From Myxococcaceae bacterium JPH2 (GTDB lineage: Bacteria > Myxococcota > Myxococcia > Myxococcales > Myxococcaceae): a stretch of 64,000 nucleotides of DNA. Numbering within the stretch: the first letter of the stretch is position 1; each line of letters opens with the position of its first letter. Shown here piece by piece: positions 3,703-17,164 of the stretch. Both the position numbers and the translations under genes were made by a program. Below the pieces are notes generated by a model. It made no database searches. It had not been told where the DNA came from and saw nothing but the letters and a program-made list of their open reading frames with translations. The DNA lies in the NCBI GenBank assembly GCA_016458225.1, contig JAEMGR010000005.1, positions 744,001 through 808,000 of the forward strand, given 5' to 3'.

Positions 3703-4417
3703 ACGGGCGCTGGTGATGGGCGCCTCGGCCGGCCTGGGGCGCGCGTGCGCCACCGCGCTGGTGAAGGAGGGCGCCACCGTGGCCCTCTGCGCGCGCGGCG
3801 GAGACCGCCTCAACGCCACGGCCCAGGCGATGGGCGCCGCGCTCGCCGTCCCGTGCGACCTGTCTCAGCCCGGCGCTGCCCGCGCGCTGGTGCGCGAGGT
3901 GGTGGCGAAGCTGGGCGGCGTGGACATCCTCGTCATCAACTCGGGCGGCCCGCCGCCCGGCGGCATCGAGTCCATCAGCGACACCCAATGGCAGGCGGGC
4001 TTCCAGAGCCTGTGGATGACGGCGGTGGACAGCATCCAGGAGGCCCTGCCCGGCATGAAGGCCCAGGGCTGGGGACGCATCGTGCTCGTCACCTCCACCG
4101 CCGCACGCGAGGCGCTGCCCAACCTCACCATCTCCAACGGCCTGCGCGCCGGGCTCCTCGGATTGGTGAAGACCGTCAGCAACGAGGTGGGCCCGCACGG
4201 CATCACCGTCAACGCGGCGCTGCCCGGCTACCATGCCACGGACCGCATGAAGGACCTGGGCCTCACCGACGAGAAGGTCGCCCCCCAGATTCCCGCGCGC
4301 CGCCTGGGTCGCCCCGAGGAGTTCGGCGCCCTCGTCGCCTTCCTCGCCTCCGAGCCCGCCGCGTACATCAACGGCCAGTCCATCGCCTGCGACGGAGGCG
4401 CCCTCCGCGGCTTCTGA
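3680..4417 (+). CDS. atypical short-chain dehydrogenase/reductase lacking the YxxxK pair
   Basis: A 245-residue SDR with a GASAGLG cofactor loop (residues 14-20), an NSGGPPPG segment at the usual NAG position, and a C-terminal INGQSIACDGG. The catalytic serine is present (Ser139), but the tyrosine and lysine of YxxxK are replaced by Ser152 and Arg156 (ISNGLRAG). This matches the FabG-like SDR subgroup known to lack the canonical tetrad, so ordinary SDR chemistry cannot be assumed. The gene is coupled to kmo by a 23-bp overlap and is last in the kynurenine operon. Its substrate is unknown; a role in kynurenine or aminomuconate metabolism is inference from position. Confidence 0.85.
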   Translation: MDFGLKGRRALVMGASAGLGRACATALVKEGATVALCARGGDRLNATAQAMGAALAVPCDLSQPGAARALVREVVAKLGGVDILVINSGGPPPGGIESISDTQWQAGFQSLWMTAVDSIQEALPGMKAQGWGRIVLVTSTAAREALPNLTISNGLRAGLLGLVKTVSNEVGPHGITVNAALPGYHATDRMKDLGLTDEKVAPQIPARRLGRPEEFGALVAFLASEPAAYINGQSIACDGGALRGF

Positions 4418-13654: not shown

Positions 13655-13679
13655 AGCGGGGCCTCACCAGGGCCCCGCT
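13655..13679. terminator. bidirectional terminator hairpin between convergent genes
   Basis: A perfect 9-bp inverted repeat (AGCGGGGCC at 13655-13663, GGCCCCGCT at 13671-13679, 7-nt loop) lies between the lipoprotein stop at 13642 and overlaps the last codons of the minus-strand WD40 gene. Only about 20 bp separate the two genes, so one hairpin probably serves both. Confidence 0.65.
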
Positions 13680-16318
13680 CCCTTCGGCCAGCGGGTCTTC
13701 GCGTCGTGCTTCACGTCGCGCGCGTTGGCGGGCAGGCGCGCATCGCGCAGGTCCGCGCCGCTGAGGTTCGCGTAGTCCAGGTTCGCGTCCGACAGGTCCG
13801 CGCCCCGGAGGTCCGCGCCGTCGAAGCGCGTGGTCATCAGGTCGGCGGACAGCTTCGCCTCGCGCAGGTCCGCCAGGGTGAAGATGGCGCGGTAGCAATG
13901 GGCTCGGGAGAGGTTCGCGCCGCGCATGTCCGCGCCTCGGAAGTCAGCGTCGAACAGGTTCACGTCCGAGAAGTCCGTGCCCACGAGCTTCGCCTCGCGG
14001 AAGTCCATGACGTCGAGCATCGCCTCGGACAGTCGCCGCCCGCTCAGGTCGATGCCCGTCAGCGGAACCGGGAAGCGCTCCCCCAGGTCACGGCGGAAGC
14101 GCTCGCGCCACGCATTCCAGCGCCCGAGCCCATCCTCCACCTCGCCCCGCAGCATCGCGAAGGCCTCCTCCCGCGTGGGCAACAGGAGCCGGATGAGCAC
14201 CTCCTCGGAGAGCACCCGCGCCTTCGTGGGCACACCCGCCTTCGGCTTCCCCTTCCCCAGCTCCCCTCGCGCCACATCCGTCACCACCGGTCCAGGCTTC
14301 GCCACCACGGCGCCGCCCAGCTCCTTCACCGTGACCTCCCGCAGGGCCTTGCTGGCCTGCTTGAAGCGTCCCTCGAAGAAGAAGTGATGACCCGCGAGGC
14401 GCTGCTCGAACAAGCGCACGGGCTCCGCCGGCACCACCACCCGCGTCTCCGATTCCAGCAGGAAAGGCTCACCGGCCTCGCGCGCCACCGCATCGAGTTC
14501 GATGACCGCGACGCTCCGGTCCTCGCCGATGAAGGCCACGTGATTGCCGTCGACGGCCAGCGGGTGGGCCCCGAGTTCCTCGCGTCGGGTCGGCTCCTCC
14601 TCCTCATCCCGCGCCTCTTCGGGAGCGTCGTGCCAGCGCGCTTGCGCCACGTCCGCGAGGAGCAGTCGCCCCCCGGAGCCGGTCACCGCCAGCCGCGTCC
14701 CTTCCCCCACGAAAGCCACCTGTCCCAACCGGAGCCGCGGGCGCGCCAGCCGCGACACGACAGCGCCATCGCGTGGATCCACGACGAGGATGGCGCAGCG
14801 GGCATGGTAGTGGTTCACGTCCTCGTCGAAGCTGACCGCGATCCACCCGCGCGCGGAGACCGCGAGCCCGCGCGCCACGCCGCCCGCCTTCAAGGGGATG
14901 GAGCGCAAGAGTCGCGGTGTCCCCACGAGCGACCAGATCCGCACGGCCGTGTCCACGCTGACCAGCCACGCGTCCTGGGGGCCAAAGGCACACGCCTGGA
15001 CCCGGGCGTCATGCGTCAGCGTCGCGACCCGCACCTTGCGCTGCACATCCCAGACTTCGACGTCGTGGTCGGCGGAGGCTGCGATCCACGTCTGACTTCG
15101 CGAGAGGGCGAGCGGGCCACTCGCATAGGTCCCCAGTTGGAACGCCGGCAGCGACTCCTCGCCCAACAACTCGCCCACGAAGACCGAGTCGTAATCGAGC
15201 CGCACCCACTCCCCCGAGGCGAGCCCCTTCACGTCCGTGGGCGGAAACGTCGTGGGAATCTCCGACCGCTTCCCCGTGGCCCGCTCCCACGTCACGCACG
15301 TCGAGCGGCTCGCGGCCGACACGGCACGAGCAGTGAGCGCCAGTCCCTCGATGTCCGTGGGCGCCGCGTCGCCCGTGCACGGCTGCCCGTCCTCCGTGGA
15401 CCAGACGCTCAGCGCGCCGTCCGTGGAGCCCGTCGCGAGCCACTTTCCATCCGGCGACAGCGCGGTGCTGGAGCCCTGCGCGTGACGGCGCGGCACCGTC
15501 AGGTGGGACAGCTCTTCCCCCGAGTCCACGCTCCACACGCGCACCCACCGCTCGTTGCCCAGCGAGTACGCGCGCGCTCCGTCTGGAGAGAACGCCACCC
15601 AGCGGCACCCCGCGCCTCCCGAGGCGCCCGTGGCCTCGAAGGTGTGTTGTCCCGTGAAGCCGGCTCGCGGCGCCAGACCCGGCACTTCCCAGAGCCTCAC
15701 GTCTCCCACGCCGTGCCCGCTCAGCAGCAGGCTCCCATCCGGAGAGAAGGCCAGGGCGAGCACCTTGGTGCGCTTGCGCTTCGCCCGCTCCTTCCCCGTG
15801 CGCGCATCGAACACGCGCACCATGCCCCGTGAAGAGCCCGTGGCCAGCCACGCCCCATCCGCGCTGAACGCCGCCGCGTAGAGCTGTCCGTCCTCGGGTG
15901 GCAGCGTGTGCAGCAGGGCGCCGGTCTCCACGTCCCAGACGCGGGTGTCCTGCTCCTCGCCGAAGGTGATGAGCCGCGTGCCATCCGGGCTCACGCTCAC
16001 GTTGCCCAGCTTGTTGTCCAGCGTCCCCACCTTCCACGCCATCCGGCCCGAGGGCTTCAACCGCCGCGCCTGTCCCCAGGTCGAGGTGATGACGTCTCCA
16101 TCGGGCAGACAGAACAAGGACCGCCCCACGTCGAGCACCCGCTCGTCCACGAGCGCACCGTCCTCCACGGAGAAGGTCAGCAGGCGCGTGTCGTCGGCCA
16201 GCACCGAGAGTTCGCGGGAGTCCGACGAGAAGGCCAACCCCGAGAAGGATCCGGGCGCGTTGAAGCGCGTGGCGCCGTAGACGACACGAGCGGACGAGTC
16301 GAGAGGGGTGCGGGACAT
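13664..16318 (-). CDS. WD40-repeat / pentapeptide-repeat fusion protein
   Basis: An 884-residue protein from the ATG at 16318 (MSRTPLDSSARVVYG). The N-terminal two thirds are WD40 beta-propeller repeats with recurrent LAFSPDGxxLLSG and VRLWEV/VRVFDA motifs, enough for one or two propellers. Residues about 755-872 are a pentapeptide-repeat quadrilateral helix with A(D/N)Lxx units (DFRGADMRGANLSRAH, DLRGADLSDANLDYA). The middle segment (about 600-740) is less repetitive. Both halves are protein-interaction scaffolds, so a scaffold or effector-sensor role is likely; no enzymatic domain is seen. It is divergent from the methyltransferase gene with only 21 bp between start codons. Confidence 0.82.
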   Translation of the reverse strand: MSRTPLDSSARVVYGATRFNAPGSFSGLAFSSDSRELSVLADDTRLLTFSVEDGALVDERVLDVGRSLFCLPDGDVITSTWGQARRLKPSGRMAWKVGTLDNKLGNVSVSPDGTRLITFGEEQDTRVWDVETGALLHTLPPEDGQLYAAAFSADGAWLATGSSRGMVRVFDARTGKERAKRKRTKVLALAFSPDGSLLLSGHGVGDVRLWEVPGLAPRAGFTGQHTFEATGASGGAGCRWVAFSPDGARAYSLGNERWVRVWSVDSGEELSHLTVPRRHAQGSSTALSPDGKWLATGSTDGALSVWSTEDGQPCTGDAAPTDIEGLALTARAVSAASRSTCVTWERATGKRSEIPTTFPPTDVKGLASGEWVRLDYDSVFVGELLGEESLPAFQLGTYASGPLALSRSQTWIAASADHDVEVWDVQRKVRVATLTHDARVQACAFGPQDAWLVSVDTAVRIWSLVGTPRLLRSIPLKAGGVARGLAVSARGWIAVSFDEDVNHYHARCAILVVDPRDGAVVSRLARPRLRLGQVAFVGEGTRLAVTGSGGRLLLADVAQARWHDAPEEARDEEEEPTRREELGAHPLAVDGNHVAFIGEDRSVAVIELDAVAREAGEPFLLESETRVVVPAEPVRLFEQRLAGHHFFFEGRFKQASKALREVTVKELGGAVVAKPGPVVTDVARGELGKGKPKAGVPTKARVLSEEVLIRLLLPTREEAFAMLRGEVEDGLGRWNAWRERFRRDLGERFPVPLTGIDLSGRRLSEAMLDVMDFREAKLVGTDFSDVNLFDADFRGADMRGANLSRAHCYRAIFTLADLREAKLSADLMTTRFDGADLRGADLSDANLDYANLSGADLRDARLPANARDVKHDAKTRWPKGAGPW

Positions 16319-16325
16319 GCGAGCC

Positions 16326-16333
16326 AATATACT
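16326..16333. promoter_or_regulatory. back-to-back -10 elements for divergent leaderless transcripts
   Basis: The 21-bp gap between divergent starts at 16318 and 16340 holds AATATACT. On the plus strand TATACT (16328-16333) lies 6 nt before the ATG at 16340; on the minus strand TATATT (16331-16326) lies 7 nt before the ATG at 16318. Transcripts from either box would begin at or next to the start codon. No Shine-Dalgarno fits in the gap, and no good -35 was seen. Confidence 0.6.
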
Positions 16334-16339
16334 GGCCAC

Positions 16340-17164
16340 ATGCTTCCGCGAGCTGCTGACGCGCTCCCACCCCACCCTCGCCTCCCGCTGCTCGTCACCA
16401 CCTCGGACCGGGTGGATGACGACCTGTCCACGCGCGCGCGCCTCGCGGCCGAGGACGCGGGGGTGCCCTTCGTGGCGCGGCACCACAAGCTCCCGCTCAA
16501 GAAGCTGCTCGCGGAGACGGCGGATGCGCTCGTCGTCTTCGAGGCGGAGGCCGTGTCGCTGGTGGACGCCGAGGGCGTGCTGCGCTTCTCGCCGGGCCTG
16601 GGACACCTGCGCATCCGGCAGCTCGACGCGGGCGTGCCCGAGGACATGCTCCTGCGCGTCGCCGGACTGCGCGAGGGCGAGCACGTCCTCGACTGCACCC
16701 TGGGCCTGGGCGCGGACGCGCAGGTGGCGGCGCGAATCGTGGGGCCCTCGGGCGCGGTGACGGGTCTGGAGAAGAGTCCCGCCCTGTACCTCCTCGTCCG
16801 CCACGGACTCGAAGGGCTTCCTCGTCATCCCGCCGCGTGCGCCATCCGCGTGGTGCACGCCGACGCGTCGGAGCACCTGCGCACGCTTCCCTCGGGCGCC
16901 TTCGACGTGGTGCTCTTCGACCCGATGTTCGAGCGTCAGCGCAAGTCCTCCGCCGCCTTCGAGGCGCTGCGCCGCCACGCGGACTACAGCCCCCTCACGC
17001 GAGAGACCGTGGCCGAGGCCCAGCGCGTCGCGCGCCGCGCGGTGGTGCTCAAGGGCTCGCGCTACTCGCAGGACTTCAAGAAGCTAGGCATCCAGCCAGA
17101 GCCCGCGCGCCCCAACGCCACCGTCCTCTGGGCGAAGCTCCCTGGCATCAGCGCCGCGCCATGA
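16340..17164 (+). CDS. RsmJ/YpiP-like class I SAM methyltransferase
   Basis: A 274-residue Rossmann methyltransferase. Motif I is DCTLGLGADAQVAAR, and the post-IV motif is DVVLFDPMF, where DPMF is characteristic of RsmJ (16S rRNA m2G1516 methyltransferase) and of the Bacillus YpiP group. The N-terminal region (LLVTTSDRVDDDLSTRARLAAEDAG) resembles the RsmJ/YpiP N-terminal domain. An rRNA (guanine-N2) methyltransferase is the best guess, but the sequence is distant from proteobacterial RsmJ and the substrate is inferred. The start at 16340 has no Shine-Dalgarno and is probably leaderless. Its stop overlaps the next gene by 4 bp. Confidence 0.75.
   Translation: MLPRAADALPPHPRLPLLVTTSDRVDDDLSTRARLAAEDAGVPFVARHHKLPLKKLLAETADALVVFEAEAVSLVDAEGVLRFSPGLGHLRIRQLDAGVPEDMLLRVAGLREGEHVLDCTLGLGADAQVAARIVGPSGAVTGLEKSPALYLLVRHGLEGLPRHPAACAIRVVHADASEHLRTLPSGAFDVVLFDPMFERQRKSSAAFEALRRHADYSPLTRETVAEAQRVARRAVVLKGSRYSQDFKKLGIQPEPARPNATVLWAKLPGISAAP

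Follow-up and report, generated by a model that had tools for sequence, protein, structure and literature searches.

Bidirectional promoters, as described for E. coli and Salmonella, have start sites 7-25 bp apart and reciprocally overlapping -10 elements (PMC12825309, PMC10268837). Start-site distances of 10, 18 and 23 bp are common in these reports, as a preference which is not strict and allows small variation. All 5 E. coli promoters tested in PMC12825309 were so weak at basal level that losing one RNA left the other unaffected, and interference appeared once one direction was activated. Of 33 delta-proteobacterial genomes, 8 were predicted to contain leaderless genes, the motif in high-GC groups being TAnnnT (Zheng, 2011; PMC3160421); the main text of that study uses none of the words Myxococcus, Anaeromyxobacter and Sorangium. 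For the Deinococcus-Thermus phylum a -10 region adjoining the open reading frames and leaderless mRNA were described (PMC12340547). Cappable-seq data are available for M. xanthus (E-MTAB-11042; PMC8844925), in a paper whose main text does not use the word "leaderless". Among the titles and abstract openings surveyed none named leaderless bidirectional promoters or myxobacterial leaderless mRNAs, which is weak evidence of their absence.

Here we describe a locus of Myxococcaceae bacterium JPH2 at which features of these systems appear to meet. The analyzed window, a stretch of 64,000 nucleotides with a GC content of 67-73%, belongs to an assembly of 9.0 Mb. Two divergent genes are separated by an intergenic gap of 21 bp (16319..16339, both strands; GCGAGCCAATATACTGGCCAC on direct reading), which holds both predicted promoters. 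The ATG of the rightward gene, encoding a methyltransferase, occupies 16340-16342 of the plus strand, and the ATG of the leftward gene, encoding a WD40 protein, reads as CAT at 16316-16318. A -10-like hexamer TATACT (16328..16333, plus strand) is followed by 6 nt and then by the methyltransferase ATG; its minus strand counterpart TATATT (16326..16331, read from 16331 to 16326) is followed by 7 nt and then by the WD40 ATG. TATA (16328-16331) is common to both hexamers and lies inside AATATACT (16326-16333). The distance between the ATGs, the two spacings and the overlap had been given in a first-pass annotation and proved exact. With a spacing of 7 the predicted +1 of TATACT is 16340, the A of the methyltransferase ATG, and with a spacing of 7-8 that of TATATT is 16319-16318. 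The Shine-Dalgarno words GGAG, AGGA and GAGG were found 0 times in either 21-nt upstream stretch. The annotation's wording that no Shine-Dalgarno sequence can fit is valid only if the transcripts begin within the gap. At spacers of 15-19 the best match to the -35 sequence TTGACA was 1/6 on the plus and 2/6 on the minus strand, too little for a sigma-70-type promoter with a -35, and a sigma-70 scan of 16200-16460, which requires a -35, returned 0 promoters. Neither hexamer carries the TG of an extended -10.

The methyltransferase gene (16340..17164, plus strand, start set at ATG 16340) encodes 274 amino acids. Its product scored 44.8 bits against Pfam PF04445 (SAM_MT; cutoff 26) and 22.1 bits against the NCBIfam RsmJ equivalog NF008012 (cutoff 422). 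Because the first cutoff was passed and the second score fell far below its cutoff, the protein is classified by these profiles as RsmJ-like and not as RsmJ. Using a cutoff of E<=0.001, matches were found in 50 of 60 genomes; many of the weaker ones are partial and probably belong to other methyltransferases. The WD40 and pentapeptide-repeat protein of 884 amino acids is encoded at 13664..16318 on the minus strand, with its start at ATG 16318. Its gene is rare: when up to 15 candidates per genome were scored, matches at E<=1e-40 were obtained in 3 of the 60 genomes, its own included. Within the same search, long relatives were confined to two genomes, G015 and G029, where they stand at other loci. 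One of them (L045, in G029) matched residues 9-640 and 790-883 only, as if it had been shortened internally.

How common such starts are in this genome was analyzed in a sample of 40 stretches (L046-L085) plus the window of G000, together 864 kb or 9.6% of the assembly, in which a dynamic-programming gene caller blind to upstream signals predicted 646 genes. TANNNT was rare in this sample, with 664 occurrences in 1,727,976 strand-positions. At 6-10 nt before in-frame ATGs, 51 matches were found over 918 ATGs, where distances 14-34 predict approximately 8.6 (Poisson p of about 6e-23, with positions treated as independent). Out-of-frame ATGs used as controls gave 2 matches over 404 and 0 over 207. 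The 51 matches were distributed as 47 on 628 ATGs lacking a Shine-Dalgarno word and 4 on 290 ATGs with one, and GTG starts showed little enrichment. Using distances of 5-11 nt and ATG, GTG or TTG starts, 78 of the 646 genes qualified before chance correction. Those with ATG numbered 55, with about 12 expected, an excess of approximately 43 genes. Since TANNNT is enriched before in-frame ATGs which mostly lack a Shine-Dalgarno word, -10 elements abutting open reading frames are in use in this genome and a leaderless-like gene class exists. The size of the excess suggests leaderless expression as a sizeable mode in the genome. Among the 55 ATG genes no clear -35 was observed (mean best match 2.62 versus 2.54 in shuffles; a match of 4/6 in 8 genes versus 4.6 expected). 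The middle letters of their hexamers were G in 35/55, G or A in 47/55 and G or C in 42/55, so that the commonest letters, taken position by position, read TAG(G/A)(G/C)T. TATACT and TATATT depart from these letters. The locus, with its elements at 6 and 7 nt, consequently fits the class in position and less in letters. A second, smaller rise of TANNNT was seen at distances of 36 and 37 nt from in-frame ATGs (7 and 9 matches versus a background of about 1.7), upstream of them, and perhaps reflects a preferred leader length. AATATACT itself occurred 2 times in the 8,994,968 bases of the genome, both strands considered, the second time in an A+T-rich stretch. Because its reversed control word was also scarce (1 occurrence), this rarity is largely one of composition.

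For the methyltransferase, 13 of 16 close orthologous loci (at least 69% identity) had an in-frame ATG that lacked a Shine-Dalgarno word and was preceded by TANNNT at 6-13 nt. This count combines 14 loci scored first (13 positive, L006 negative) with L004 and L005, both negative. The hexamers of the positive loci were TAGGCT (9), TACGCT (2), TATACT (1) and TATCCT (1). In 11 of the 13 the spacing to the ATG was 10-12 nt, which implies a predicted leader of a few nucleotides and not of zero length. Among more distant loci (about 41-54% identity) 1 of 21 had TANNNT near a candidate start, a GTG. In this comparison L020 and L025, whose matches were cut or partial, went unscored, as did L042; L001, the locus itself, and L002, taken to be the same as L031, were omitted. 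Conservation of the promoter as a family-wide methyltransferase trait was rejected on this count. Judged from these loci, the trait is confined to the close clade, a group whose loci do not count as independent cases. No match to the WD40 gene was found at the close methyltransferase loci except for a remnant in Citreicoccus inhibens, and the predicted open reading frame upstream of the methyltransferase, examined at five loci, was never the WD40 gene. It lay on the same strand in L031 and on the opposite strand in L032, L034, L036 and L039, so that such methyltransferase genes can also be divergent, from other genes. Because the close loci keep TANNNT where the WD40 gene is missing, the close clade appears to have a near-leaderless-looking methyltransferase start that is independent of it. 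By analogy with these orthologues and with the genomic class, we consider it quite probable that the methyltransferase studied here has a leaderless or near-leaderless start.

The comparison with C. inhibens also bears on the WD40 side. In the search of 60 genomes the methyltransferase of a same-genus relative was 95% identical, and C. inhibens gave the same match. The alignment with this sister species (L031) breaks at window positions 13742/16287, with a junction overlap of 6 bp (L031 3948-3953), and the segment 13743..16286, 2,544 bp comprising nearly the whole WD40 gene, is missing. Because both ends of the WD40 gene remain in C. inhibens, a deletion there is more likely, on this alignment, than an insertion in the studied genome. 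C. inhibens keeps AATATACT and AGCCAATATACTGGCC, with an identical TATACT and the same 6-nt spacing to the methyltransferase ATG, and the WD40 ATG is lost. The flanks are about 92% identical, and at this level an identical run of 16 bp is not significant by itself. Since the element persists there without the WD40 gene, its conservation says nothing for leftward use. In C. inhibens a GTG in the same frame, 21 nt ahead of the methyltransferase ATG and itself preceded by GAGG at 12 nt, may be an alternative start. The long WD40 relatives L044 and L045, both at other loci, were inspected by eye for TANNNT beside their likely starts and had none; they were thus discarded as independent evidence for leftward initiation. 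The first-pass annotation had regarded both genes as probably leaderless: by analogy this is supported for the methyltransferase, and for the WD40 gene a leaderless start is plausible and not independently supported.

In our view, leaderless use of this promoter in both directions is plausible, with the chances about evenly balanced. The alternative to be taken most seriously, although we regard it as rather unlikely, is that TATACT drives the methyltransferase only and that TATATT is a by-product of symmetry. The promoter of the WD40 gene would then lie within the methyltransferase gene and give its mRNA an ordinary leader, or the gene would hardly be transcribed at all. Since TATA equals its reverse complement, the two hexamers are not fully independent, and a leftward -10 comes fairly cheaply. 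In the sample, 88 of 662 other TANNNT sites (own two hexamers removed) were overlapped by an opposite TANNNT; for other TATANT sites the figure was 1 of 6. Such figures allow for a by-product, as do the rarity of the WD40 gene among the 60 genomes and the retention of the rightward element in C. inhibens, where the WD40 gene is lost. A rate of about one in seven is low, however, and a WD40 ATG at the right distance does not follow automatically from the symmetry: it lies at leaderless distance, 7 nt from the hexamer, and lacks a Shine-Dalgarno word. Nor are double starts unusual in this genome. Divergent pairs leaderless-like on both sides amounted to 7 of 115 in the sample versus 4.2 expected; doubles therefore need no special cause, which weakens the one-way explanation, and for the same reason the idea that an excess of such pairs marks a special arrangement was rejected.

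Two further explanations were considered. If the starts or hexamers were misread, true translation would begin elsewhere, at GTG 16412 for the methyltransferase or at one of the in-frame codons GTG (16339) and TTG (16327) upstream of the WD40 ATG, and the octamer would be an A+T-rich word without promoter role. The gene caller indeed chose GTG 16412 for the methyltransferase, and 20 of the 21 more distant methyltransferase loci lack TANNNT. However, the same caller placed the WD40 start at 16318, such a hexamer is scarce in the genome, and the close orthologues align to the methyltransferase from residues 1-17 on, upstream of GTG 16412, which corresponds to residue 25. Homology thus favours, at the level of these alignments, ATG 16340 over the start called, and we hold a misreading to be improbable. 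Still less probable, to a degree that we would give it little weight, is an operator: the imperfect palindrome GCCAATATACTGGC (16323..16336), centred on the shared TATA and symmetric at 12 of 14 positions, would then be a dyad for a transcription factor controlling one or both genes. With up to 2 mismatches the genome contains 9 forward and 6 reverse matches, and the reversed control has 2 in each orientation. A perfect palindrome, GCCAATATATTGGC (L086 2882-2895), precedes by about 94 bp a gene that was identified by eye as superoxide dismutase-like. Yet the matches at all but two places carry 2 mismatches, several of them are the same word GCCAACATCCTGGC, approximately one site with 1 mismatch is expected by chance from a rough composition estimate, and neither neighbour protein matched a regulator family.

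Returning to the promoter read in both directions, its layout was searched for in 96 family genomes at each of three fixed spacings (7/6, 7/7 and 8/7 nt) with the overlap fixed at ANTATANT. The studied site and one site in G033, inside an open reading frame, were recovered, with 0, 2 and 0 matches for the controls; no other intergenic case was found in these 96 genomes at the three spacings. Three double pairs of the sample have hexamers at most 60 bp apart, and in the studied pair alone do the hexamers overlap. The arrangement is compact and apparently a one-off. Two other closely spaced pairs were observed. In L083 (4253-4295) divergent genes 37 bp apart carry TAGAGT on each strand, each copy at leaderless distance and part of a dyad, GGACTCTA...TAGAGTCC. 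In L053 (about 4136-4200) divergent genes 59 bp apart are leaderless-like on both sides; from its N terminus, we take one of them to encode a GalU-like protein.

From the observed sequence and spacings, the missing Shine-Dalgarno and -35 words, the class of genes abutted by -10 elements and the retention of AATATACT in C. inhibens, we infer a model for transcription in either direction, its start positions, the route of translation and the degree of competition. The 21-bp gap would act as a single bidirectional core promoter with neither a -35 nor an extended -10, in which a single, nearly symmetric TATA element provides the -10 for both strands. RNA polymerase with the housekeeping sigma factor would engage this element in either orientation, one at a time. 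Rightward transcripts would begin with the A of the methyltransferase ATG (16340), leftward ones with the A of the WD40 ATG or the base preceding it (16318/16319). Leaderless or almost leaderless, both mRNAs would be translated by the leaderless route. Rightward use would be the older function, retained in the sister species, and leftward use would be confined to the lineage that still carries the WD40 gene. The first-pass annotation had the two promoters compete for one site, making expression of the two proteins mutually exclusive. Competition is physically reasonable, and the geometry is that of the promoters in PMC12825309 and PMC10268837. Mutual exclusion is unsupported, considering the basal weakness of the five promoters in PMC12825309. 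Without a -35 and an extended -10 the promoter should likewise be weak and is unlikely to saturate its site; low output, mostly independent in the two directions, is expected for this reason. We would entertain, as a tentative and rather doubtful extension, that the promoter for two leaderless mRNAs consists of nothing more than one 8-bp -10 element. If so, opening of the DNA at one TATA would make both start codons accessible within 21 bp, polymerase orientation alone would pick the protein, and there would be no room for leader-based regulation either way.

Compared with the described systems, the locus shares with the leaderless genes of high-GC genomes (PMC3160421) TAnnnT at leaderless distance, the lack of a Shine-Dalgarno word and the high GC content; unlike here, the parts of that study considered do not mention an element shared between two divergent genes. 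With the Deinococcus-Thermus genes (PMC12340547) it has in common a -10 motif directly before the open reading frame and the predicted leaderless mRNA. That work concerns another phylum, and the words "bidirectional" and "divergent" are absent from its main text. The bidirectional promoters of E. coli and Salmonella, as far as described in PMC12825309 and PMC10268837, resemble the locus in divergent genes and in -10 elements overlapping on opposite strands, here with TATA in common, and the predicted start-site separation of 21-22 bp falls within the published window. They differ in that the starts studied here are predicted at the start codons themselves, that a recognisable -35 is lacking, and that the predicted separation is none of the preferred distances. 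If both starts are leaderless, the locus would come close to the smallest possible divergent gene start and would offer a clean natural test of output coupling, with no leader, Shine-Dalgarno sequence or -35 to confound it. The two-way leaderless arrangement would combine two already known kinds of gene start.
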